Assembly (NCBI GenBank): GCA_028871055.1
Contig: JAGWON010000007.1
Span: forward strand, 62,001-126,000
Source of the DNA: Alphaproteobacteria bacterium
GTDB lineage: Bacteria > Pseudomonadota > Alphaproteobacteria > ATCC43930 > CGMCC-115725
Reading direction: 5' to 3'
DNA length: 64,000 bases
In this document: piece by piece, positions 4,305 through 47,265 of the stretch
Position numbering within the stretch: position 1 is the stretch's first letter
How the letters are laid out: each line of letters starts with the position of its first letter
Notes under the pieces: generated by a model
Told to the model about the DNA's origin: nothing
The model's database searches: none
Seen by the model: the letters and a program-made list of their open reading frames with translations, nothing else
Position numbers and translations under genes: made by a program

Positions 4305-5612
4305 ATGATTGCGCCCGGTCTGATCATCGCTGCGCCGGCGACCGGCAGTGGCAAGACGACCGTAACCTTGGCACTGCTGCGCGCTTACCGCGACAGGGGC
4401 GAACGCGTCGCTTCGGCCAAGGCCGGACCCGATTATATCGATCCAGCCTTTCACGCCGCCGCGAGCGGCCGGCCTTGTCTCAATCTCGACCCTTGGGGGA
4501 TGCGCGAGACGACTTTGGTCGGATTGGCGCATTCGGCGGCGCGCGACGCCGATCTTCTGTTGATCGAAGGGGTGATGGGTCTCTTCGATGGCGCACGCGA
4601 CGGCACGGGTTCGACCGCCGATCTTGCCGCGCGGTTCGGCTGGCCTGTCGTTCTGGTGATCGATACCGATGGTCAAGGCGAATCGGTAGCGGCCGTCGTC
4701 GATGGTTTCCGCCGCTTCCGCAGCGATGTCGAGATCGCGGGCGTCATCTGCAACCGGGTGAGTGGCAAGCGGCACGCCGATATCCTCGCGCGGGCACTGA
4801 TGCCGCTCGCCTTGCCGCTTCTCGGCTATCTGCCGAAACAAGACGATTTGTTGCTCCCGAGCCGTCACCTCGGACTGGTACAGGCGCGCGAACGTCCAGA
4901 TCTGGAGGCGTTCCTTGGCGCCGCCGCCGCGTGGGTATCGAACCACGTCGATCTCAATGCAGTAGGCGCACTGGCACGACCAGCGCGTCCTGCCGCGGTA
5001 CCGGCTCCGGAGGCGCTGTGCCCGCTCGGCCAGCGCATTGCTGTTGCCAGCGACGACGCTTTCGCGTTCGTCTATCCGCATTTGTTGGACGCCTGGCGCG
5101 TTTCCGGAGCCGAGATCGTCCCGTTCTCGCCGCTCGCCGATGCGCCACCCGATCCTTTGGCCGATGCCGTTTATCTGCCGGGCGGGTATCCCGAACTCCA
5201 TGCCGGGCGGCTCGCTGGCAATGACCGCTTTCGCGACGGCTTGTATGCCGCCGCGGCGCGGGGCGCGGTGATCTACGGCGAGTGTGGCGGCTATATGGTC
5301 CTGGGCGCGGGACTAATCGACGCCGACGGGATACGCCATCGCATGGCCGGGCTATTGTCGCTCGAGACGAGTTTTGCCGCGCGCCGGCTGCATCTCGGCT
5401 ACCGCACAGCCGAGCTCTTGCGGGACACACCTTTCGGCGCAAGGGGCGCGCGTTTCCGCTGTCATGAGTTCCATTACGCAAGCCTCGTGAGCGAGGTTGG
5501 CATGACGCCGTTATTTGGCACCAGGGATTCCTCGGGCAACGACCTCGGCGCCGCCGGCGATCGTCGCGGAACCGTGATGGGCTCCTTCCTGCATCTCATT
5601 GATGCGGCGTAA
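4305..5612 (+). CDS. cobB: Cobyrinic / hydrogenobyrinic acid a,c-diamide synthase (CobB/CbiA)
   Basis: A 435-residue ATP- and glutamine-dependent amidase that amidates the a and c side chains of the corrin ring. The N-terminal half is a dethiobiotin-synthetase-like ATPase with the P-loop APATGSGKTT right after the start and a KAGPDYIDPAFH motif. The C-terminal half is a class-I glutamine amidotransferase with the nucleophile Cys327 in GECGGYM and a late HEFHYA segment. The ATG at 4305 puts the P-loop at residue ~9 as usual in the family; an in-frame ATG at 4254 would add 17 residues and is less likely. The name cobB or cbiA depends on when cobalt is inserted, which cannot be seen here. Confidence 0.92.
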   Translation: MIAPGLIIAAPATGSGKTTVTLALLRAYRDRGERVASAKAGPDYIDPAFHAAASGRPCLNLDPWGMRETTLVGLAHSAARDADLLLIEGVMGLFDGARDGTGSTADLAARFGWPVVLVIDTDGQGESVAAVVDGFRRFRSDVEIAGVICNRVSGKRHADILARALMPLALPLLGYLPKQDDLLLPSRHLGLVQARERPDLEAFLGAAAAWVSNHVDLNAVGALARPARPAAVPAPEALCPLGQRIAVASDDAFAFVYPHLLDAWRVSGAEIVPFSPLADAPPDPLADAVYLPGGYPELHAGRLAGNDRFRDGLYAAAARGAVIYGECGGYMVLGAGLIDADGIRHRMAGLLSLETSFAARRLHLGYRTAELLRDTPFGARGARFRCHEFHYASLVSEVGMTPLFGTRDSSGNDLGAAGDRRGTVMGSFLHLIDAA

Positions 5613-29601: not shown

Positions 29602-30858
29602 TTACTCGGCCGGTGCCGCGCGGCCGACTGGTCCGGCGATCTGCCTCGAGCGCAGCGGCTTGAGGACGAAGAGAGCCAGAGCCACGGTAACGAAGTTCAT
29701 GATCGCGGTGATGACGAACACCATGTGCCAGCTGCCGGTCGCCGCCTTGATGACGTTGGCGAGCGGCACCAGGAACGCGGCGACGCCCTTGGCGGTGTAG
29801 AGGAAGCTCAGGTTAGTGGTGCCGTATTTCTGCCCGAAGCTGTCGGTGCATGTCGACGGAAACAGGCTGAAAATTTCGCCCCAGGTGAGGAAGATCAGCG
29901 CCGCGAAGATGACGAAGGCCCAGGGCGAGGTGCCGGCCGAGCCCAACAGCCAATAGCTGATGCCGCCCAGGCCGAAGGCGATCGCCATGGTGTTCTCGCG
30001 GCCGATGTGGTCCGAGATCCAGCCGAACAGAGGCCGCGCCGCGCCGTTGGCGACGTTGTCCACCAGCAGCGCCACGGTCAGCGTCGTGCCGCCCAGGAAG
30101 ACCACCGTGTTGGCGACGTTGTAGTCGCGCGCCACCAGCGCCACCTGCGCCGCCGCCATCAAGCCGCTCGCCGCCACAAGTATGAACATGACGTAGAGCA
30201 CCCAGAACACCGGCGTCACCAGCATCTGGCCCGGTGTGTAACTCTGCGCCGACTGGATGACCTTGACCGCCGTCGGTTTCGGAACCTCACCCGCCTCCGG
30301 ATTGCGCAGGAACCACGCCACCACAAACACCACCGCGCCCTGGATCAGGCCGAACCAGAAAAACGCCGCGGCATAGCCGCTCGAGGCAATCACCGCCCGG
30401 ATCGGAATCACGGTCAAAGCCGCTCCAGCGCCGAACCCCGCCGCCGTCAGGCCCACCGCCAGACCGCGCCGGTCGGGGAACCACTTCACCGCCGTGCCCA
30501 CGCAGCTCGCATAAACCGCGCCCGCGCCAATGCCCGTCAGCGCCGCACCCACGTACAGCATCGACAGGCTCGTGGCCCACGAGTTCACGATCCAGCCCAG
30601 CGCCACGCCCACGCCGCCAACCGCCACCACCAGCTTCGGACCGATCTTGTCCGCCAGCCAGCCGTCCAGCGGCGTCAGCCACGTCTCCAGCGCCACGAAG
30701 ATGCTGAACGCCACCTGAATGTCGGCGATGACCCACTTGTTCGCCGCCGCCATCGGGTGGACGAACAGGGTCCAGCCATATTGCAGATTGGCGATCATCA
30801 CCATGCAGATGATGGCGACGATCAATTGTCCCCAGCGATTAGATGAAGTTCCGGCCAT
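29602..30858 (-). CDS. MFS transporter, oxalate/formate antiporter (OxlT)-like
   Basis: A 418-residue major facilitator with twelve hydrophobic segments, the length of OxlT. WGQLIVAIICMVMIANLQYGWTLF opens the protein, and the fifth-helix region VYASCVGTAVKWFPDRRGLAVGLTAAGFGAGAAL is the OxlT-type motif. The ATG at 30858 was chosen because GGAGGGGAAGG directly precedes it; the open frame upstream is not family-like. Substrate is likely a small mono- or dicarboxylate; no oxalate-decarboxylating enzyme is nearby, so specificity stays open. A clear terminator follows. Confidence 0.82.
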   Translation of the reverse strand: MAGTSSNRWGQLIVAIICMVMIANLQYGWTLFVHPMAAANKWVIADIQVAFSIFVALETWLTPLDGWLADKIGPKLVVAVGGVGVALGWIVNSWATSLSMLYVGAALTGIGAGAVYASCVGTAVKWFPDRRGLAVGLTAAGFGAGAALTVIPIRAVIASSGYAAAFFWFGLIQGAVVFVVAWFLRNPEAGEVPKPTAVKVIQSAQSYTPGQMLVTPVFWVLYVMFILVAASGLMAAAQVALVARDYNVANTVVFLGGTTLTVALLVDNVANGAARPLFGWISDHIGRENTMAIAFGLGGISYWLLGSAGTSPWAFVIFAALIFLTWGEIFSLFPSTCTDSFGQKYGTTNLSFLYTAKGVAAFLVPLANVIKAATGSWHMVFVITAIMNFVTVALALFVLKPLRSRQIAGPVGRAAPAE

Positions 30859-31060
30859 TTCCTTCCCCTCCTTGATGACCCGTTCCGACCGAACGGAATT
30901 TTGTTCTTCTTGGTATGCCACTATTTGAACAGCCCAAACCCGCTAACGCAAGCGCCTTGTGTACCTCGTATTGCGATGCAGCAGTAAAAAGTTAGCCGAA
31001 TTCCTCATTGCGCCGGTGCCGGCCCGCGAGTTTTCCACAAACCTGAGGCGAAGCGCCGCA

Positions 31061-35289: not shown

Positions 35290-35380
35290 GGCGCGGTGGC
35301 GGAAAAATCCCCAGCCGTTCCAGCCTTCGATGTAGTTTGCCGCCGCTCGCATGTTCGCAATCCAACACAAGGGACCACCG

Positions 35381-35815
35381 ATGAATTCCCAAGCGCGTTT
35401 TTTCATTGCCACCGCCATTTTTCTTGCCGGCATACCGCTGGCGCTGGCGGGCGAGCCGACCTCGGTCAAGGTGACGTTGTCGGACCAGGCCGGGAAGAAC
35501 ATGGCCATCACTCTCAGCCGGGACAAGGTGAAGGCGGGACCGGTCGAGTTCGAGGTCACCAACACCTCGACCGACCTGATGCACGAATTCCTGATCGCGC
35601 CGTGGAAAGGCAAGATCACGAGCCTGCCCTATGACGCGAAAGCCAAGGCAGTGGCCGAGGATAAGTTGCCTCGGCTCGAGGGTGTCGAGGACATGAAGGC
35701 CGGCGCGAAAGCAACGATCCGCCTCGTGCTGGCGCCTGGCGACTACGTGGTCTTCTGCAATCAGCCGGGCCATTACAAAATGGGCATGGAGCGGCGGTTC
35801 ACCGTCACCAAGTGA
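35381..35815 (+). CDS. Secreted cupredoxin (blue copper protein)
   Basis: 144 residues with a signal peptide (cleavage near ALAGE, residue ~24) and a plastocyanin/azurin-like beta-sandwich. All copper ligands are present: His68 in LMHEF, Cys126 and His131 in CNQPGH, and Met136 (Met134 possible). AAGGGA upstream supports the ATG at 35381; an in-frame ATG at 35351 would add ten residues. Expected to be a periplasmic electron carrier or copper carrier. It is divergent from an RND efflux operon. Confidence 0.85.
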   Translation: MNSQARFFIATAIFLAGIPLALAGEPTSVKVTLSDQAGKNMAITLSRDKVKAGPVEFEVTNTSTDLMHEFLIAPWKGKITSLPYDAKAKAVAEDKLPRLEGVEDMKAGAKATIRLVLAPGDYVVFCNQPGHYKMGMERRFTVTK

Positions 35816-35957: not shown

Positions 35958-36262
35958 GGATGGTGGTGCAATTCTCAAACTGACTCATTATCGAGCAGCG
36001 GGGTCGTTCGTTCGGCTTTTGATCGCCGCGTCACCGTGAGCGCCGGCGCAGCAACCCAATCGACTTCATTGCAGTGTCGCCCGGTGCGCCGTCTCGCGAC
36101 TTCCGCAACGACCCTGCCGGCGCTGCCGTGCATGCGGCGCTTGAGGCCGTCCGGCATTCAGCGCAAGAATACGTGCCCTCTATGCCCTCGCCACGGACGC
36201 AGCTCCGTCAGGCACGGCGGGATCGGTTCTGCGTCATCCACGCAAGAAAAAAGGAAATTGCC

Positions 36263-36742
36263 ATGGGCCGGATCGTGCTTGCGGTGCTCGTCGCCGGGAT
36301 ATTCGGGTCGCTGGCGACGCCGGGCTTCGCCCAGACGAATGAAATGTGCGTGCTGAGATGCCTGGATCACGGCAACCTGGATCAAACTTGCCAAGCCCGC
36401 TGCACCAAACCGCAACCAGCGCCGCAAAACTCTTCCGCTCGTCAAGGTCTCCAACCTTCTCAAGGTCCGGCGGCGCCGTCGGGTCCGCCTCCGTCGGCCG
36501 CCGTGCCATCGGCGCCGCAACCGACCGCGACCCAATCGGCGCCGCCGCAACCGGCAGGTCAATCAGGGTCTCAGCCCGCGGTAAACCAGCCGCCGCCGCA
36601 ACCCACGGCCGCTCAGGCAACACCGCAGCAATCCGTGCGGCCGCCGGCACCGCCGCCGCGACCGGTCAACGAGCGGTGCGTGTTACTCTGCCTCGATCAC
36701 GGCCATCTGGATCAGTATTGCGAGCGGGTCTGTTCTCATTGA
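36263..36742 (+). CDS. Secreted twin-CX3C protein with Pro/Gln-rich linker
   Basis: 159 residues, preceded by AAGGAA. A signal peptide (residues 1-23, cleavage near GFAQ) is followed by two near-identical Cys modules at the ends: MCVLRCLDHGNLDQTCQARC (Cys29, 33, 43, 47) and RCVLLCLDHGHLDQYCERVC (Cys139, 143, 153, 157), each C-x3-C-x9-C-x3-C. Between them lie ~85 residues of Pro, Gln, Ala and Ser. Such twin CX3C modules can form disulfide-stapled helical hairpins. I do not recognise the family. The neighbours are a cupredoxin and transport genes, so a periplasmic metal-binding or wall-spanning role is possible but unproven. A decayed copy lies at 29205-29462. Confidence 0.75.
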   Translation: MGRIVLAVLVAGIFGSLATPGFAQTNEMCVLRCLDHGNLDQTCQARCTKPQPAPQNSSARQGLQPSQGPAAPSGPPPSAAVPSAPQPTATQSAPPQPAGQSGSQPAVNQPPPQPTAAQATPQQSVRPPAPPPRPVNERCVLLCLDHGHLDQYCERVCSH

Positions 36743-37252: not shown

Positions 37253-38752
37253 ATGAAAATCCAGACCCGGAATCTGCTTAGCGCCTTGTTGGGCACAAGC
37301 GCCCTTGTGCTGCTCGGCAGCGCGCCCAGCTTCGCGTTGGATCTTCCGACGCCGCTCCACTACGACATGGGCCCGCTCGGCGATTGGACTGTCGTCGGCG
37401 GCGTCGATGCTTTTGCCGCGGCATGGAACAACAGCCCTGCATCGGGACTGACGGGCGGCAATGGCGGCACGGCCACGCTCGGCAACGGCAGCAGCAAGTG
37501 GAATGGTGACATCAGCCTCGACAACGCGATGTTCATCATCAATTCGAAGGGGAACATGTTCGGCGACTTCCCCTTGCAATTCCATGCCTGGGTCGGCTGG
37601 CCGCCTCAATCGCCGGTCATCGGCTTAACCTCGCCCAACGTGGCTCCGAACCTGTACGCAACGATGGGCAAGGGTAAAAATGCCACGGGTTTCGCATCGC
37701 CCCTGTTCAAGGCGTGGGCCACGTATCAGCCGCTCGACTGGTTCAGCATCGAGGGCGGCCGCTTGCCGTCGGTCGATGGCACCGAGATCGGCGTCGATTT
37801 CCTCAACGCGACGCCCTTCCTCTCGGCGCTCAACAACATGCAAACGACGGTCGCGGACGGCGCCCAGATCAACCTGATCTCCGGACCCGACAAGGCGTTC
37901 TACTACGGCTTCCTGCCGGGTTACGGCTCGACCCTGACGATCCGCATCGCAGACGGCTACAAGACCGGCTTCGCGAACGAGCTCGGCTTCACCGGCTTGT
38001 GGAATCTGACGCCTGACGGCAGCGATTTCATCGTCGGCTACGGCCACACTCGTCTGAGCACGGTTGGCGGTGCAGCAACGATCGCGGCCGGCACGGGAGG
38101 TGGCGGAAATAACGTGAACCCCAACTCGCCTGTCGGCTTCGGCACCTTTAACTCCAATCTCATCGGCGTCGGCACCGTTTATAACTTGACGAATCGCTTG
38201 ATGTTGAACGCCGAGGTCGAGACCGCGTGGTTGCCGCAATCGGACATCCCCACCGCCGACCGTTGCGGCGTAACCGGCGGGGTGAGTTGCGGTCCCAATC
38301 ACCAGCAGGACTACTATCGCTGGTCGTCGCAGGTGACCCTCAATTACGACTTCGGCATCAAGCAGATGTTCGGCCAGCCGATCCGCTTCCAGTGGGCGGT
38401 CCAGCCGTCGTTTACCTATCAGCACGCCAACACCTCGGATCCGAACGCTAATCAGTTCGGCAACTTTTACGGCGAGAATCTGGGGGCGAGTGCTGTGACA
38501 AACGGCTTGGGAACGGCGGGTAATTTTGGGACCTTCGGCGCGGGTTCGAAGATCTACGCGATCCAGACCAACCCGACCTTCCAGTTCCACAACTTCTTCC
38601 TCCGGCCGTCTATCGCCTACACGCGCATCGCCAGCTTGAGCCCGGGCTTTGGCTACGGTGGCCGGGGCACAGAACACGATCAGGTCGTGTTTCTCGTGAA
38701 CTTCGGCTGGCTGCTCGGACAGCAGGAAGACACCAACTCCGGCCAGCACTGA
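37253..38752 (+). CDS. Outer-membrane beta-barrel protein (porin-like)
   Basis: 499 residues, preceded by GGAGGGGAGAG. A signal peptide ends near SFALD (residue ~29). The mature part alternates polar and aromatic residues in many short strands (for example WTVVGGVDAFAAAW, FQWAVQPSFTYQHA, HNFFLRPSIAYTRI) and ends VVFLVNFGWLLGQQ, typical of an outer-membrane barrel. It has no recognisable enzyme motif. The next gene (a propeller-OmpA fusion) follows 53 bases later and probably belongs to the same transcript. The transported solute is unknown. Confidence 0.7.
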   Translation: MKIQTRNLLSALLGTSALVLLGSAPSFALDLPTPLHYDMGPLGDWTVVGGVDAFAAAWNNSPASGLTGGNGGTATLGNGSSKWNGDISLDNAMFIINSKGNMFGDFPLQFHAWVGWPPQSPVIGLTSPNVAPNLYATMGKGKNATGFASPLFKAWATYQPLDWFSIEGGRLPSVDGTEIGVDFLNATPFLSALNNMQTTVADGAQINLISGPDKAFYYGFLPGYGSTLTIRIADGYKTGFANELGFTGLWNLTPDGSDFIVGYGHTRLSTVGGAATIAAGTGGGGNNVNPNSPVGFGTFNSNLIGVGTVYNLTNRLMLNAEVETAWLPQSDIPTADRCGVTGGVSCGPNHQQDYYRWSSQVTLNYDFGIKQMFGQPIRFQWAVQPSFTYQHANTSDPNANQFGNFYGENLGASAVTNGLGTAGNFGTFGAGSKIYAIQTNPTFQFHNFFLRPSIAYTRIASLSPGFGYGGRGTEHDQVVFLVNFGWLLGQQEDTNSGQH

Positions 38753-38805
38753 TCGGATCGAAGCGACCAGGACATAACTCAACACGACGAATCATGGAGG
38801 GGACA

Positions 38806-40284
38806 ATGCGCAGAGGACTGGTAGTGGCGCTGGTGGCGTCCGCCGCGTTGCTCGCGGTGCCGGCCTTGGCAGCCGAGTATCATTACGTGAAGGTCGCGGA
38901 CATCTATCTGCCGACCCCGCGAGGACATGGCGACATCGTCAGCTACGATCCGACGAACGGCATGGTCTATGTCTCGCTGAAGGACGACGGCTTGGCCGTC
39001 GTCGACACGCGGACCCAGAAGGTCGTGCACACGATCAAGGACATTCCGGATCCCAACGCCAACGCCTTTGACGCCAATTACGTCTATGTCGCCTCGGCCG
39101 AAGGTCTTCCCCAAGGCCAGAGCGGCGCCAACAACGGCACCGGCTTCGGCACCGTGAACCAGCTCGTCGTCATCGACAAGCACACGTGGCAGGTGGTCGA
39201 CCGGGTCGACACCAAAGGCACGTCGCCGGACGCTGTCACCGTCGGTGATGGCCACGTTTACGTGGTCAGCGACGATCACAACTGGATCGAGGCGTATTCC
39301 CAGGGCGCGCATCCGCAACTCCAGGGCGTATGGCATCTCTATCCGCAGAACATCAACCACTGGTGGCTCGATACCTCGGACTTCTGCGGGCCGGACGTGA
39401 ATTGGATCTCGGACAGCCGTCATGAGATCTACCAAACGGTCGATTCTTATATCGAGGTTGTCGACTCCAATAACGGCACAATCAAGCGCCACTTCGATAC
39501 CCACGTGAAGCTGACCGGGAAGTGCGGCACCAAGGGCACCTGGCTCGACGAAAAGAACAATCGCCTGTGGGTCGCCACGACCACCAAGGCCGGCGGCCTG
39601 TGGGTCATGAACCCGAACACGCTTCAGTTGATCAAGAAGCTTCCCGCGACGAACGGCAAGGACCAGATGTCGGTCGATCCGGGTCTTGGCTTGGTCTATA
39701 CGTTCGGGACCAACGGCTTCGATGCCTATGACCTCAACGCGATGCAGCACGTCGCATACGTGAACACCCATGTCGGCGTCACCCATACCGGCGACATCGA
39801 TACGAGGACGCATGCGGTCTATGTCTACGAAGGCAAGCGCGCGGCGCTCGGCGTGTTCTGTCCCGTTCCCGGACCTGGGCCGAACGGGGATTGGGCGGTG
39901 GGGATGACCGCCGCTTGCGGCGCGATGCCGGTTGCTTATGGATCGTCGAGCTATACCGTCTACTTCGAGTTCAATAAGGCGGACCTGACCGCCGACGCGC
40001 GCAAGATCGTCAATCAGGCCGCTGCCACGGCCAAGCACGGCACGGCACGGATCGTGGTCGACGGCTACACCGACCTCGCGGGTACGGCGCAGTACAACCT
40101 CGGCCTGTCGCAGCGGCGTGCCGCGGCGGTGCGCGCCGCGCTCGTCGCCGACGGTATCGCCGCACGGCGTATCACCATCCACGGCTACGGCAAGACCCAT
40201 CCGGCCGTGCCGACACCAGACGGCGTGCGTGAGCCGCGCAACCGTCGCGCCGTGGTCCTCATCGGGCCGGCGCCGACGACGTGA
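38806..40284 (+). CDS. YncE-like beta-propeller fused to an OmpA peptidoglycan-binding domain
   Basis: 492 residues from ATG 38806, with GGAGGGG 4 bases upstream. A signal peptide (cleavage near LAAE, residue 23) precedes a ~340-residue region of propeller repeats (GMVYVSLKDDGLAVVDTRTQ, VYVASAEGLPQGQ, YIEVVDSNNGTI, NRLWVATTTKAGGLWVMNPN). An OmpA-C domain follows at residues ~381-492 (VYFEFNKADLT, DGYTDLAGTAQYNLGLSQRRA, REPRNRRAVV) with the Asp and Arg residues that bind diaminopimelate. The protein should thus be a periplasmic propeller anchored to the cell wall. The partner may be the upstream barrel. The propeller's ligand or function is unknown. A terminator follows. Confidence 0.82.
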   Translation: MRRGLVVALVASAALLAVPALAAEYHYVKVADIYLPTPRGHGDIVSYDPTNGMVYVSLKDDGLAVVDTRTQKVVHTIKDIPDPNANAFDANYVYVASAEGLPQGQSGANNGTGFGTVNQLVVIDKHTWQVVDRVDTKGTSPDAVTVGDGHVYVVSDDHNWIEAYSQGAHPQLQGVWHLYPQNINHWWLDTSDFCGPDVNWISDSRHEIYQTVDSYIEVVDSNNGTIKRHFDTHVKLTGKCGTKGTWLDEKNNRLWVATTTKAGGLWVMNPNTLQLIKKLPATNGKDQMSVDPGLGLVYTFGTNGFDAYDLNAMQHVAYVNTHVGVTHTGDIDTRTHAVYVYEGKRAALGVFCPVPGPGPNGDWAVGMTAACGAMPVAYGSSSYTVYFEFNKADLTADARKIVNQAAATAKHGTARIVVDGYTDLAGTAQYNLGLSQRRAAAVRAALVADGIAARRITIHGYGKTHPAVPTPDGVREPRNRRAVVLIGPAPTT

Positions 40285-40800: not shown

Positions 40801-40970
40801 GGACGTATCACCCATTTACGATTCCAGGTACTAGACGCCATGCTGGCGCCGTGACCCGCGGTGAAAATGTTGCAACGAAACGGTCATCGCTTCATTGGCA
40901 AAGGCCGATGGCATAATGTATACCAGAGGCAATAAACGGGCCTGGATACACCAGGCCTACGGGAGGGAAC

Positions 40971-41096
40971 ATGGCCGTTCCATCGGCCGCAGCCGCCAAA
41001 ACTGGCGGGTGCGAAGAGGACTCGAATCAGATATCGCAGTCGCCGATAGGGGCGAGTGCGTGCCGGCGGCCGGCCGCGGATGGAGCGTGCCGATGA
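40971..41096 (+). CDS. Short leader ORF coupled to the outer-membrane factor gene
   Basis: An ATG preceded by GGGAGGGAAC (the best ribosome site in the region) opens a 41-codon frame that ends in TGA overlapping the ATG of the outer-membrane factor (ATGA). The peptide is Ala/Cys-rich (Cys14, 31, 40) with no similarity I recognise. It may be a leader that couples translation to the efflux operon, or the true start region of an uncharacterised small protein. The outer-membrane factor itself lacks a comparable ribosome site, which supports a coupling role. Confidence 0.45.
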   Translation: MAVPSAAAAKTGGCEEDSNQISQSPIGASACRRPAADGACR

Positions 41097-42478
41097 TCGC
41101 TTGCCGCTGGCTCCGCTGGGGTGCGGCCGGCCTCGTTTTCGGCCTGGCGGGCTGCTCCACCTATCATCCGCTTCCGCTTCCCGAGCGGCCGAATCTTGCG
41201 CCGAGCATCGCGCGGCTGAACCTCGCCGTACCGTCGGACAAGGATGCGACGGATCCGGTCAAGCTCGACGTCGCCAAGCCGCTGACGCCCGATCAGGTCG
41301 GCATGCTCGCGGTGCTCAACGATCCGGATCTGGCGTCGCAGCGCGGCAAGATCGCGGCCGCCAAGGCCGACGTGCTCGCCGCCAAAATCCTGCCGAACCC
41401 GTCGGTCGGGCTCGGCTATGCCTATCTGGTGAGCGCGCCGCCCGGGGCGGGCGCCGTGGCCGACGCGCTGACGGCGTCGATCTCGCAGGACATCCGTTCC
41501 ATCATCCAGTACGGACCGCACGTCGCCGCGGCCGAAGCCCGATTCCACCAGGTCGGCGCCGACGCGCTGTGGGCCGAATGGCAGGTCGCGCAAAAGGCGC
41601 GGCTGCTCGCCATCGGCATCAATAGCGAAGACCGCGAGATCGCGCTGCGCGAGCATGCGCTCGCCTTGTTGACTGCCGAGGTCAAGGACGTGCAGCGGGC
41701 GACCGCGGCCGGCAACCTCGACCTCACCGCCGAGGCCCCGCTCCTGGCGGCGCTCGCCGGCGCGCAGCGCGATCTTGCCACATTGGAGCTGCAGGAGCTC
41801 AAGGATTGGCAGGAGCTCGACTCGCTGCTGGGCCTGCAGCCGACTGCGCGCTTCGCCATCGCAGCGCCGGAGCCCGTGAAGCTGCCGGACTCGATCGATC
41901 CGCTGATCGTCTCGCTGCCGACGCGGCGTCCCGATCTGGTCGCGCTGAAGCTCGGCTATGACGCGGCCGAAGCCGACGTGCGCGCCGCCATTCTCGGCCA
42001 GTTCCCGGCTTTCAGCCTGGGCGCCGCCGGCGGCTCCGACACCTCGGAAGTCGTCTCGGTCGGACCGCAGATCACCTTCGACCTGCCGATCTTCGATCGC
42101 AACCAGGCCAAGATCGCCTCGACCCGGGCGACCCGCCTCCAGCTCCACGCCGAATATCAATCGCGGCTTGACGACGCGGAAGGAACCGCCCGCAGCCTGC
42201 TGCTTCGCGCCAAGACGGCCGCGGCCAATCTCGAGCGCGCACGCAAGGCGCTAGCTTCGGCCACCGCGGCGCTCGACGCCGCCGAGCGCGCCTACCATCA
42301 GGGCAATCTCGACCAACGCTCGCTTTCGGATTATCAATCCACCGCGCTCGACCGCCAGGTGGACGTCCTCGATTACGAACAAGCCCTGCAAGAGGATTCG
42401 CTCGCCCTGTCGGTCGAACTCGGCGTCGGCTTCCCGCCGACGATGATTGCGCCCCCGGATCGGGAGATACACTCATGA
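41093..42478 (+). CDS. RND outer-membrane factor lipoprotein (TolC/CusC-like)
   Basis: 461 residues. The start at 41093 gives a lipoprotein signal (MIACRWLRW, hydrophobic core, then LAGC with the lipidated Cys) as in CusC/OprM proteins. Two duplicated coiled-coil repeats (residues ~90-260 and ~300-450) with LPNPSVGLGYAY, LPTRRPDLVALK and VGPQITFDLPIFDRNQAKIA are standard OMF features. It overlaps the adaptor gene by 4 bases, so this is a full OMF-adaptor-pump operon. Confidence 0.87.
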   Translation: MIACRWLRWGAAGLVFGLAGCSTYHPLPLPERPNLAPSIARLNLAVPSDKDATDPVKLDVAKPLTPDQVGMLAVLNDPDLASQRGKIAAAKADVLAAKILPNPSVGLGYAYLVSAPPGAGAVADALTASISQDIRSIIQYGPHVAAAEARFHQVGADALWAEWQVAQKARLLAIGINSEDREIALREHALALLTAEVKDVQRATAAGNLDLTAEAPLLAALAGAQRDLATLELQELKDWQELDSLLGLQPTARFAIAAPEPVKLPDSIDPLIVSLPTRRPDLVALKLGYDAAEADVRAAILGQFPAFSLGAAGGSDTSEVVSVGPQITFDLPIFDRNQAKIASTRATRLQLHAEYQSRLDDAEGTARSLLLRAKTAAANLERARKALASATAALDAAERAYHQGNLDQRSLSDYQSTALDRQVDVLDYEQALQEDSLALSVELGVGFPPTMIAPPDREIHS

Positions 42479-43506
42479 CCTCCAAGAAGCTCGCTGCACT
42501 GGCTCTGGCGCTTTGTCTTGTGCTTCCCGCCGCCGCGGTGCGGGCCGATGACAGCGACAACGTCAGCGCGCTGGTCAAGGTGGCGCAAATGAAGCAGGGC
42601 AGCCTGCCGGTCACCGTCACCGCCTACGGTCAGGTGCAGCCGGCGGCATCGGCCAAAGAGTCGATGGCCGCTCTGCTGGGCGTGCGGGTCGCCAGCGTCA
42701 TGGTGCAGACAGGGCAGCAAGTCGCCAAGGGTGCGCCACTGCTGACGCTCATGCCGACGGCGCAAACGCGGGCGGATTATCTGCTGGCGAAGCAGCTTGC
42801 GGAGCGTACCCGCTCGCTGGCGAAGGCTCATCTGGCGACGGCCGCCGATTTGGCCAAGGCGGAATCCGATCTCTCGGTTCTGCAGGCGGGCGGCGCCGCC
42901 GGCCCGAACACCATCAAGGCGCCGTACGACGCCATCGTTCTCAAGGTGGATGCCGGTCAGGGCGCGGTGGTGTCGAAAGGCGATGCGCTGCTCGAGCTCG
43001 CGCGGCCCGACGGTCTCGTCGTCAACGCCGGCATCGATCCCGGCCAGGCGATGTCGGTGAAGGCGGGCGATGCCGTGGCGCTCACGCCGTTCAGCGTTAC
43101 GGCCGCGGCGGTCGAGGGCAAGGTCGTGCTGCGCTCCGCGGTGGTCAATGCCGACAGCGGCCAGGTCCCCGTCCAGATCGACTTCCCGGCCGGCAAGCTG
43201 CTCGTCGGCGAGATGGTACGCGCCGTCATCACCGCCGGGCAGAAGACCGGCTTCATCGTTCCGCACTCGGCGATCCTGGTCGACGACGACGGCACGATCT
43301 ATGTCGTCCAGGACGTCGACAACGCGGCGAAGAAGGTCGCGGTGCAGGTGCTTGCCGCGCACGGTGACCAGGATGTGATCTCGGGTGACGATCTCGATCC
43401 AAAGGCGCCAGTCGTGCTGGAAGGCAATCATCAGCTCGACGACGGCACCAAGCTGCGCCTCGCCGAAACGCAGGGGGCGAGCTCGAAGGGGGCCGGGAGC
43501 AAATGA
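42475..43506 (+). CDS. RND periplasmic adaptor protein
   Basis: 343 residues with a signal peptide (cleavage near VRADD, residue ~24), a first lipoyl half (GVRVASVMVQTGQQVAKGAPLL), a short helical hairpin, a second lipoyl half (IKAPYDAIVLKVDAGQGAVVSKGD) and beta-barrel regions. It overlaps the outer-membrane factor and the RND permease by 4 bases each. It should bridge the pump and the outer-membrane channel. Substrate unknown. Confidence 0.85.
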   Translation: MTSKKLAALALALCLVLPAAAVRADDSDNVSALVKVAQMKQGSLPVTVTAYGQVQPAASAKESMAALLGVRVASVMVQTGQQVAKGAPLLTLMPTAQTRADYLLAKQLAERTRSLAKAHLATAADLAKAESDLSVLQAGGAAGPNTIKAPYDAIVLKVDAGQGAVVSKGDALLELARPDGLVVNAGIDPGQAMSVKAGDAVALTPFSVTAAAVEGKVVLRSAVVNADSGQVPVQIDFPAGKLLVGEMVRAVITAGQKTGFIVPHSAILVDDDGTIYVVQDVDNAAKKVAVQVLAAHGDQDVISGDDLDPKAPVVLEGNHQLDDGTKLRLAETQGASSKGAGSK

Positions 43507-46500
43507 AATTCATCAATTGGGTTGAGAAGCATCGCCGCTCTCTGCTGTTCATCGCGTTCGCGCTGACGCTGGCGGGCCTTTTCGCCGGCGCGACGCTGCC
43601 GATCGGTCTGTTCCCGGTCGTCAGCTTCCCGCGCATCCGCATCGAGGTCGACGCCGGCCACATGCCGGCCGATCAGATGCTGATCGACGTGACCGAGCCG
43701 CTCGAAGAGGTCGGCCGTGCCATACCGGGCGCGGTCGATGTCGAGTCGACGACGTCGCGCGGCTCCGCCGAGATCTTCGTCGATTTCCCGTGGGGCTGGA
43801 ACATGTCGCGGGCGCTGCAGGCCGTTCAGGGCGCCTTCGCGCAGAAGCTGCCGGACCTGCCGCAAGGCACGACCTTCGACGTGCTGCAGATGAGCCCGAC
43901 GGCCATCATGCCGTTCGTCTCCTATGCGCTGATTTCCAAGACCGTATCGCCGGCCGAGTTGCGCCAGCTTGCGCAATTCCAGATCGCGCCGCTGCTCACT
44001 GGCATTCCGGGCATTCGCCGGGTCGGCGTGCTCGGCGGCGAGACGCCGGAGGTCCAGGTCTACGTCGATCCGCAGAAGCTGCGCGGCTACGGCATGACGA
44101 TGAAGGATGTCGAGGGCGCAATTAATGAGACCAACACGTTGAAGTCGGTCGGCCGGCTCGAAGACAACGACCTGATGTACCTGATGATCGCGAACAGCGC
44201 GTTCAAGGACATCAACTCGGTCAAGAACGTCACGCTGCGCACGCCGAAGGGCGGACTCGTCCGCCTCGGCGACATCGCCGACATCAAGATGGGCGCGGTG
44301 CCGCAGTGGCTTTTGGTCAACGACAACGGCCGTCCGGCGGTCACCTTCGACGTTTTCCAGCAGGACAGTGCCGACTCCATCGCACTTGCGAAGCAGGTCA
44401 AGGCGCGGCTGGACCAATTCATGAAGACCCAGCCGAAGGCGATCGAGCTCTACAAGTGGTACGATCAGACCGAGCTGGTCCACTCCTCGATCGACGCCTT
44501 GGAGGAGGCGATCCTGATCGGCCTGGTTTTCGCCGGTTTGGTCATCATGGCGTTCCTGCGCAACTGGCGCGCCACGTCGGTCGCCATGATCGTCGTGCCG
44601 ATGTCGGTCCTGGTCACCTGCATGCTGCTGTCCGCCCTCGGCATGACGTTCAATATCATGACGCTGGGCGGCATTGCCGCCGCGATCGGCCTGCTGATCG
44701 ACGACGTCATCGTCATGATCGAGCAGATCGCGCGGCGCGCCGGCATACCGGGCCATCCGGAGCCGAAACGCCTGGTGTTGGGTTCGGCGCGGGAATTCCT
44801 GGCGCCGCTGACCGGCTCGTCGCTGGCGACGATCATCATGTTCATCCCGTTGGGGTTTCTCTCCGGCGTGACCGGTGCCTTCTTCAAGTTCCTGTCGATC
44901 ACGATGGCGTCGTCGCTGATCATCTCCTACGGACTGACGGCGCTCATCGTGCCGCTGCTCTCGCACGGCATCATCGACTTCCAGAAGTGGCACGATCCCT
45001 CGCACGGCCGCGAGGACATCATCAAGCGAACCCACAAGCGGGCGCTCAGTGCGCTGTTCGCGCGGCCCTGGCTGATCGGCGTCGGCGTCGGCCTCTTCGT
45101 CGTTATCGGCTATTTCGGCTACGGCCATGTCGGCACCGGCTTCCTGCCGAAGATGGACGAGGGCGGCTTCGTGCTCGACTACGTCGCCGATCCGGGCACG
45201 TCGCTCCCCGAGACCAACCGCGAGCTCGGCGAGGTCGAGGCGATCCTCAAGAAGAATCCATATGTCTATACCTATTCACGCCGCACCGGCGCCGGCCTCG
45301 GCGGCGACCTCAACGAAGCGTTCATGGGCGACTTTTTCGTCCGGCTGGTGCCGGCGTCCAAGCGGCCGAACATCTGGAAGGTGATGGACAGCATCACCAA
45401 CGAGATCACCAACACGGTTCCGGGCATCGACTTCGACACCCATCTACTCCTGGGCGACATGATCGGCGACATGGTCGGCCGGCGCCAGCCGATCGTGATC
45501 AACCTGAGCGCCAAGGATCCGCGCGTCCTGCCGAAGATCGCCAATCGGGTGGCGAAGGCGGTCGCGAAGGTGCCGGGCATCGAGCCGGCATCGGTCAACA
45601 ACGGCATTCAGCCGGCCGGCGACGCGCTCGAGATCCGGGTCGATCCGGCCGCCGCCGCGGCCAACGGCGTCACGCCGGCCGACGTCATGAGTCAGGCGAG
45701 GCGGTATCTCAACGGCAGCGTCGTGAGCACCTACCTTGGCGACGTCCAGGACGTCGGCGTGCGGCTCTGGGCGCACGCGCCGGTCGGCAAGCTCTATCGC
45801 GACGACGTCAAGAACCTGCCGCTGAAGTCGCCCGACGATGGCCATCTGTTCACGCTGGGCTCGGTCGCCAAGGTCGAGTTCGTCGGCGGCCAACCCGAAC
45901 TCTTTCGCGAGAACTTGGCGCAGATCATTCCGGTCACCGCCGAAATCGGCGGTGGCCACGACCTCGGCTCGACGATTGCCGGCGTGAAGAAGATTCTCGA
46001 TCGGCCGGGCCTGCTGCCGCAGGGCGTGTATTACCATCTCGGCGGCGAATACAAACAGCAGCAGCTCGCGATCGACGGCATGATCAAGGTCGGCCTTGCC
46101 ACGGTCCTGGCCGAGATCATCCTGCTGCTTTTCCTCTACGAGCGCTTCTCGATCCCGATCCTCATCATCGTCAGCTCGCTGATCTCGACCGGCGCCGTGT
46201 TCACCGGCCTTTGGATCTCCGGCATCGAGTTCAACATCACGGCGATGATGGGCATGGTCATGATCATCGGCATCTCGACCGAAATGGCGATATTCCTCTT
46301 CTCGGAGTTCCAGATGCTCGAGAAGACCATGCCGCCGCGACAGGCGATCGTCGAAGCGGCGCTCAACCGCTTGCGCCCGATCGTGATGAGCACGCTGGCG
46401 ATGATCCTCGCGCTGCTGCCCTTGGGCGTGGCAATCAGCGGTTCGGGCGACCAGATGCTGCAGCCGCTGGCGATCGCAATCATCGCCGGCATCACCGTCC

Positions 46501-46631
46501 AGCTGCCGCTCGTTCTGCTCGCCATGCCGGTGCTGGTCGGATTGATGGTGCACAAGCGCGAGCGCGCGCCGATGATGCATCTGCTGAAAGCGGCGGCGCG
46601 GCGGCGCTGGCGGCCCGGCCCGGCCGAATAG
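43503..46631 (+). CDS. RND efflux permease (AcrB/CusA superfamily)
   Basis: A 1042-residue twelve-helix pump with duplicated halves. The TM4 motif GLLIDDVIVMIEQIARR near residue 400 has the proton-relay Asp pair; TM1 is LLFIAFALTLAGLFAG. The second half repeats the helix bundle (AEIILLLFLYERFSIPILIIV; MVMIIGISTEMAIFLFSEF). The TM4 sequence is not a clear match to the metal-type consensus, so drug-like or other substrates are as likely as metals. Third gene of the operon, followed by a PepSY-like secreted protein. Confidence 0.9.
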   Translation: MKFINWVEKHRRSLLFIAFALTLAGLFAGATLPIGLFPVVSFPRIRIEVDAGHMPADQMLIDVTEPLEEVGRAIPGAVDVESTTSRGSAEIFVDFPWGWNMSRALQAVQGAFAQKLPDLPQGTTFDVLQMSPTAIMPFVSYALISKTVSPAELRQLAQFQIAPLLTGIPGIRRVGVLGGETPEVQVYVDPQKLRGYGMTMKDVEGAINETNTLKSVGRLEDNDLMYLMIANSAFKDINSVKNVTLRTPKGGLVRLGDIADIKMGAVPQWLLVNDNGRPAVTFDVFQQDSADSIALAKQVKARLDQFMKTQPKAIELYKWYDQTELVHSSIDALEEAILIGLVFAGLVIMAFLRNWRATSVAMIVVPMSVLVTCMLLSALGMTFNIMTLGGIAAAIGLLIDDVIVMIEQIARRAGIPGHPEPKRLVLGSAREFLAPLTGSSLATIIMFIPLGFLSGVTGAFFKFLSITMASSLIISYGLTALIVPLLSHGIIDFQKWHDPSHGREDIIKRTHKRALSALFARPWLIGVGVGLFVVIGYFGYGHVGTGFLPKMDEGGFVLDYVADPGTSLPETNRELGEVEAILKKNPYVYTYSRRTGAGLGGDLNEAFMGDFFVRLVPASKRPNIWKVMDSITNEITNTVPGIDFDTHLLLGDMIGDMVGRRQPIVINLSAKDPRVLPKIANRVAKAVAKVPGIEPASVNNGIQPAGDALEIRVDPAAAAANGVTPADVMSQARRYLNGSVVSTYLGDVQDVGVRLWAHAPVGKLYRDDVKNLPLKSPDDGHLFTLGSVAKVEFVGGQPELFRENLAQIIPVTAEIGGGHDLGSTIAGVKKILDRPGLLPQGVYYHLGGEYKQQQLAIDGMIKVGLATVLAEIILLLFLYERFSIPILIIVSSLISTGAVFTGLWISGIEFNITAMMGMVMIIGISTEMAIFLFSEFQMLEKTMPPRQAIVEAALNRLRPIVMSTLAMILALLPLGVAISGSGDQMLQPLAIAIIAGITVQLPLVLLAMPVLVGLMVHKRERAPMMHLLKAAARRRWRPGPAE

Positions 46632-46693: not shown

Positions 46694-46728
46694 GGGGAAG
46701 TGTGTCACAGATCCAGGGAGGATGTCTT

Positions 46729-47265
46729 ATGACGAAGCATGTGGTGTTGGGGTTGTTGGCCGTCGGGTTGCTGGCGTTCACGACGACGCTGGCTCTGGCG
46801 GATTCGGACTACGAGTACGGCAAGCAGATGGCGAAGCTGGTCAAGGCGATGCCGCAGGCGAAGGTGACGCTCGACCAGGGCATAAAGACCGCGGCAGCCG
46901 GCGGCAAGGCGATCTCGGCGCAATACGAGGTCGACGAGGATGCCGGCTTCCAGCTCTCGGTCTTCGTGAGCAAGGGCGGCGGCGCGGCCGACGTCCACGA
47001 GGTCATCGTCAATTACACCACCGGCGCGATCAAGAGCGACGATAAGCTGACGGATCCCGACGACGTCACGGACGCCGGCCATCAGCTCGCCGCCCTGGCC
47101 AAGGCCAAGACCTCGCTGGAGCAGGCGGTGGAAGCGGTGCTGAAGGCCAATCCAGGCTACACGGCGATCCGCGTCTATCCGAAGCTGAGCGGCGGCTCGG
47201 CCGTCGCCGCGATCACGCTGCTCAAGGACGGCAAGACCAAGAAGCTCACGCAAAAGCTCGATTGA
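46729..47265 (+). CDS. Secreted PepSY-like domain protein
   Basis: 178 residues from ATG 46729 (AGGGAGGA upstream). A signal peptide (MTKHVVLGLLAVGLLAFTTT, cleavage near ALAD) precedes two related alpha-beta modules, TLDQGIKTAA...GAADVHEVIVNYTTGAI and SLEQAVEAVLKANPG...AAITLLKDGKTKKL. The VHEVIVNYTTGAI strand-loop is PepSY-like. PepSY proteins are periplasmic and often accompany transport or redox systems. It probably works with the upstream RND operon, but no direct role can be read. Confidence 0.72.
   Translation: MTKHVVLGLLAVGLLAFTTTLALADSDYEYGKQMAKLVKAMPQAKVTLDQGIKTAAAGGKAISAQYEVDEDAGFQLSVFVSKGGGAADVHEVIVNYTTGAIKSDDKLTDPDDVTDAGHQLAALAKAKTSLEQAVEAVLKANPGYTAIRVYPKLSGGSAVAAITLLKDGKTKKLTQKLD

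Follow-up and report, generated by a model that had tools for sequence, protein, structure and literature searches.

What kind of protein is encoded by a short gene that lies between a cupredoxin gene and a gene for a porin-like protein in an uncultured alphaproteobacterium? The gene occupies positions 36263..36742 (+ strand) of the window, by which we mean the whole stretch of 64,000 nucleotides that was analysed, and specifies 159 amino acids. A sequence-only reading of this DNA had described a secreted protein in which two modules with the shared core CLDHGxLDQxC are joined by a Pro/Gln-rich linker. On re-reading the sequence, we found the ORF, its coordinates, the signal sequence, both modules with this core and the linker to be as described. 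Specifically, a purine-rich ribosome-binding site region (AAAAAAGGAAATTGCC; 36246..36262, +) lies ahead of the ATG, and the coding sequence opens with a predicted Sec-type signal peptide (MGRIVLAVLVAGIFGSLATPGFA; 36263..36331, +) that runs to about A23; as read from the sequence, this N-terminus is hydrophobic, ends in GFA followed by Q, with cleavage expected before Q24, and has no lipobox. The N-terminal module (CVLRCLDHGNLDQTCQARC, residues 29-47; 36347..36403, +) and the C-terminal module (CVLLCLDHGHLDQYCERVC, residues 139-157; 36677..36733, +) flank a Pro/Gln/Ala/Ser-rich linker of 84 residues (residues 50-133; 36410..36661, +) that consists of 31% Pro, 18% Gln and 18% Ala and has no cysteine.

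A selected gene with orthologs in two other species

A search of the genus identified orthologs with 69% and 57% identity in two of three further species, at loci corresponding to the records REEB95 (L006, the reverse complement of a G001 contig) and REEB225 (L007). The third congeneric genome, which is 85% complete, gave no match to the module protein; its contig with the next downstream gene breaks inside that gene. Both orthologs keep the signal sequence and both modules; their mature parts contain exactly eight cysteines, and their linkers are cysteine-free and drift in length and sequence between species. The type of signal peptide is conserved in the orthologs, and export to the periplasm or to the extracellular space is predicted.

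All three sequences start with MGRI and have a purine-rich ribosome site upstream. Comparing the window with L006 (NG86), we obtained dN/dS values of 0.12/1.65 for the N-terminal module, 0.10/0.70 for the C-terminal module and 0.26/0.88 for the whole gene. As judged from these values, the modules are under purifying selection. The linker, by comparison, varies in both sequence and length, which is what one would expect if it is the spacer that it had been suggested to be. Absence of the modules from close relatives would have pointed to a spurious ORF; both modules are present in two other species, and the orthologs, the conserved start and ribosome site and a dN far below dS rule out a spurious ORF and document a real, selected gene.

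An internal duplication of the module

Each module has the cysteine pattern C-x3-C-x9-C-x3-C, and identity between the two copies amounts to 60% along 25 residues (15/25; 11/21 without the four cysteines). Because none of 200,000 shuffles, in which the cysteines were fixed and the other residues shuffled, reached the observed score or identity of the module pair, the internal duplication proposed from the sequence is well supported. At the DNA level, 45 of 75 positions are identical and the longest exact run is 9, suggesting that the duplication is probably old.

Across the three species, the E, the four cysteines and the L-D-H after the second cysteine are invariant in six of six modules, giving a core that we write, by eye and with spacing counts that differ by one between its two forms, as E-x-C-x3-C-L-D-H-x6/7-C-x3-C. 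The C-terminal module of L007 has x8 between the cysteine pairs, one residue fewer, and therefore the x9 spacing is not absolute. At pH 7, the two modules carry charges of about -0.2 and -2.0, i.e. they are neutral to acidic.

A family apparently restricted to one genus

A profile (A2) was built from the six modules, on all of which it scores about 56-64 bits by construction. Among 43 genomes of the order, no other genus gave a match comparable to these, and outside the genus the family and order yielded only four partial matches (E 0.017-0.035). No module genes were detected in a sample of the class (385 genomes, E up to 0.001) or in 398 genomes of the phylum, where the best other match scored 20.9 bits and was partial; the phylum matches were weak and mostly partial, and four that were inspected lacked the module. 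Searching 39 family genomes with the whole protein, we rejected a match in another genus (G013, E 6.5e-4) that spans query residues 43-130, mainly the linker. No second module gene was found in the genome of the window itself, the second match there (E 1.5e-4, query residues 52-140) being mainly to the Pro-rich linker. A genome-wide search with the CX3C pattern was swamped by chance (134 matches versus 113 in a reversed control), and one in-frame match among those listed was a different Cys-rich protein. Viral contigs contained no module genes, and plasmids gave five chance-level matches only (E 5-10), in transposase and other unrelated genes. As far as sampled, the family thus appears to be confined to one genus of uncultured Alphaproteobacteria.

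The suggestion that no described family accounts for the protein held up: Pfam, NCBIfam, PHROGs and the PDB sequences gave no match over threshold. A promoter scan and an Rfam search also found nothing. We note separately that a Cys-rich protein containing a number of CX3C pairs, for example CGAECARCVDEDEADACISAC, is encoded near G000:C14:75819-75881 (-) within locus L048 (G000:C14:74800-76900); it is copper storage protein-like in outline and has no Pfam or NCBIfam match.

The modules are predicted to be helical hairpins

AlphaFold was run on the full-length protein with three sequences and on the module with all six modules aligned, such that the models rest on 3-6 sequences. In the full-length model, helices are predicted at residues 26-35 and 40-48 in the N-terminal module and at residues 137-145 and 150-158 in the C-terminal module, plus one in the signal peptide; the mean pLDDT is 59, low owing to the linker, which has no secondary structure. 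The C-terminal module alone reached a mean pLDDT of 85.6 and about 93-95 across the hairpin, with helices at module positions 11-19 and 24-31. The helical hairpin that the sequence-only reading had considered is thus predicted with good confidence: two helices are joined by a short turn and each bears one cysteine pair at i,i+4. In this model, the conserved Asn/Asp before helix 1 and the conserved Gly in the turn would fit a hairpin.

Hairpins of this architecture are known from plants and scorpions. The plant alpha-hairpinins and the kappa-hefutoxins of scorpion venom have disulfides that link C1 to C4 and C2 to C3 (PMC7191063), and the 4C alpha-hairpinin pattern is CX3CX4-20CX3C (PMC11591084), a pattern that the bacterial protein contains twice, with x9 between the pairs (x8 in one L007 module). 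As is predicted for the modules here, plant alpha-hairpinins are secreted antiparallel helix pairs with a turn; they share the 4C cysteine pattern, and their precursors can likewise be modular (PMC7191063, PMC11591084). Unlike them, the protein is bacterial, has no significant profile or structure match to members and combines two copies at the chain ends with a Pro/Gln strap, non-cationic modules and an L-D-H core. The kappa-hefutoxin family (PF08095), with a similar cysteine pattern and hairpin scaffold, was the best sub-threshold profile match of the N-terminal module (E 0.061, 14.1 bits, below the Pfam cut-off of 25), but its members are single-domain scorpion venom peptides and we take the likeness as convergence. 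Similarly, when the full protein was compared with Pfam, the best match below threshold was the pollen allergen Ole e 6 (PF09253; 10.2 bits, cut-off 27.7), to which the C-terminal module aligned. Ole e 6 (PDB 1ss3) consists of two antiparallel helices and a short loop, as here, but differs in being a single-domain plant protein with six cysteines and an unstructured tail. It was also the only hairpin peptide among ten Foldseek matches against the PDB (rmsd 1.5 over 23 columns), the other nine being one kinase (MELK), and none of the ten was significant.

The hefutoxin and Ole e 6 matches are no evidence of homology, but each belongs to the same architectural class; the shared architecture of alpha-hairpinins, kappa-hefutoxins and Ole e 6 with the modules is likely convergence. 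With respect to the earlier view that the layout itself is undescribed, the lack of a family match stands, whereas the architecture predicted for one module alone is shared by several cystine-stabilised helical hairpins that are unrelated to one another. The protein would best be described as a genus-restricted orphan in which a scaffold of known kind occurs in a new duplicated, strapped arrangement.

The genome encodes DsbA-family and DsbB proteins, and the envelope can consequently form disulfides. Because the modules fall in the same architectural class as disulfide-paired hairpins and DsbA/DsbB are encoded, a disulfide-stapled helical hairpin is the most likely state of each module. Against this stand the non-significant similarities in Foldseek (E 4.6) and Pfam (E 0.79) and a VIA-align comparison with the PDB in which no Z of 2 or more was obtained.

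The resemblance to alpha-hairpinins raises the question of whether the protein is a precursor from which cutting of the linker releases two hairpin peptides acting on other cells, as in the modular plant precursors. The fit of the module to CX3CX4-20CX3C and the described modular precursors (PMC11591084), the sub-threshold likeness of the N-terminal module to the hefutoxin profile (E 0.06) and an exposed linker that would be a likely protease target are consistent with this. However, the neutral to acidic modules are unlike cationic antimicrobial peptides, the linker shows no conserved cleavage motif, both heads are kept in one chain in the orthologs and we recognised no immunity, dedicated exporter or processing gene beside the module gene. 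We therefore consider release of peptides less likely and, overall, quite improbable.

A second, also less likely, reading starts from the mitochondrial small Tim proteins, which likewise are twin CX3C hairpins in an oxidising compartment. Small Tims have longer helices, form hexameric chaperone rings and have neither a duplication nor a Pro-rich strap. A role as a small chaperone or adaptor that serves outer-membrane or efflux proteins in the periplasm would agree with the twin CX3C hairpin, the disulfide-forming compartment and the porin-like, OmpA-domain and RND genes nearby. Nevertheless, the predicted helices here span only 8-10 residues, whereas small Tims bind their clients with far longer ones, and a genus-restricted distribution is odd for a general chaperone. 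PDB sequences gave no small Tim match, and with E values of up to 5 accepted, PF09253 and PF03153 were the only profiles that the full protein matched. We regard a chaperone as very unlikely.

A hypothetical model of a bivalent hairpin protein

Our working hypothesis is that the gene encodes a lineage-restricted secreted protein in which two disulfide-stapled hairpins form paired binding heads on an extended flexible tether, an account to which we give an even chance of being correct. In this model, each 25-residue module would form a small hairpin of two antiparallel helices once in the oxidising envelope, where two disulfides would staple it, presumably in the order C1-C4 and C2-C3. The hairpin pair, born of the internal duplication, would present the same conserved E-x-C-x3-C-L-D-H surface twice, and the extended, flexible Pro/Gln-rich strap would keep the two hairpins apart. 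Because the arrangement combines two copies, conserved heads and a drifting strap, we infer bivalent binding, i.e. the protein may bridge two copies of one partner or bind a repeated surface with avidity. The staple would explain the cysteines, which leaves the conserved L-D-H, predicted to lie at the end of helix 1, as the best candidate contact surface.

It is conceivable, though less likely than not, that the protein stands for a hitherto undescribed bacterial family of bivalent envelope proteins. In such a family, the cystine-stabilised helical hairpin, a scaffold known from plant defence peptides and animal venoms, would have been independently invented, duplicated and placed on both ends of a Pro-rich strap, either to bridge two sites in the envelope or to carry two redox-switchable metal sites there. 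If true, this would add a two-headed bacterial version to a scaffold that plants and venomous animals seem to have reinvented, and it would provide a naturally occurring bivalent binder of very small size with a flexible strap. The small phylogenetic range moderates this interest; the module gene also illustrates clearly how selection can act on a gene of lineage-restricted distribution.

Gene neighbourhood and a possible metal role

A metal site would likewise be compatible with the His and Asp that are conserved next to the cysteines, and the gene neighbourhood bears on this. The upstream neighbour encodes an exported cupredoxin-like protein (35351..35815, +; PF00127, 22.2 bits, cut-off 21.2). 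Downstream of the module gene lie genes for a porin-like exported protein (37253-38752; no Pfam or NCBIfam match, 60% identity in L007), for a protein with a YncE-like beta-propeller and an OmpA domain (38794..40284, +; PF00691, 7e-22) and for an outer-membrane factor, an adaptor and an RND pump (40895-46631). Upstream, the opposite strand encodes another RND-type pump with an adaptor. The gene order of L007 is as in the window, including a syntenic cupredoxin, and additionally has a heavy-metal response regulator (TIGR01387) and sensor kinase (TIGR01386), both over the family cut-offs, between the adaptor and the cupredoxin; this two-component system is absent at the equivalent spot in the window. 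At L006, one flank of the module gene is formed by a tRNA-Phe gene together with his/maf-type genes, and the beta-propeller/OmpA gene is near the module ortholog in both L006 and L007.

The main rival to a bivalent hairpin protein is a carrier or buffer for metal, most likely Cu(I), in which the thiolates of the two CX3C pairs of each module, together with the conserved His, would bind the metal and the strap-joined heads would pass it to the neighbouring cupredoxin or efflux proteins. The cupredoxin encoded beside the gene in both the window and L007, the heavy-metal regulators beside the L007 copy and the His conserved in six of six modules argue for such a role, as does the binding of Cu(I) by CXXXC-bearing, Cys-lined helices of Csp copper storage proteins (PMC5519932, PMC5171941). 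The likeness to Csp lies in cysteine pairs on helices and in the heavy-metal regulators beside the gene in one relative; yet Csp are Cys-lined four-helix bundles (PMC5171941), as opposed to two small, separate predicted hairpins with four cysteines each, and there was no profile match.

Several observations argue against the metal role. The envelope is disulfide-forming, with DsbA/DsbB encoded, and the two-component system occurs in L007 but not at the window locus. The RND pump at 43503-46631 scores 370 bits with the CusA/CzcA model, below the metal-efflux cut-off of 701 bits. RND and adaptor queries gave no matches on the short L006 contig, where no efflux gene was found. At L006, only a decayed fragment of the adjacent cupredoxin gene is left next to an intact module gene; as read from this contig, the module gene is present without a functional adjacent cupredoxin. 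Of the neighbourhood noted earlier, the cupredoxin and the pumps are there; the link to copper through these neighbours is weak, and we regard a metal role as possible but weak, and on balance unlikely.

The cupredoxin remnant in L006 (L006:6693-6815) lies directly after the module gene, on the side away from the tRNA-Phe gene, with the beta-propeller gene beyond it; the remnant comprises 41 residues with an in-frame stop, and the His of LMHEFL is changed to Asn. In the genome of the window, a YncE paralog is encoded at a further locus, where no module gene accompanies it. In G003, a second copy of a YncE-like beta-propeller gene (L065, G003:C20, ~4461-5477) has two in-frame TAA codons. Finally, in the window itself, an exported 187-aa protein with no Pfam match is encoded after the RND operon (46702-47265), and an oxalate/formate MFS antiporter is encoded at 29602-30921 (539 bits, NCBIfam cut-off 335 bits).
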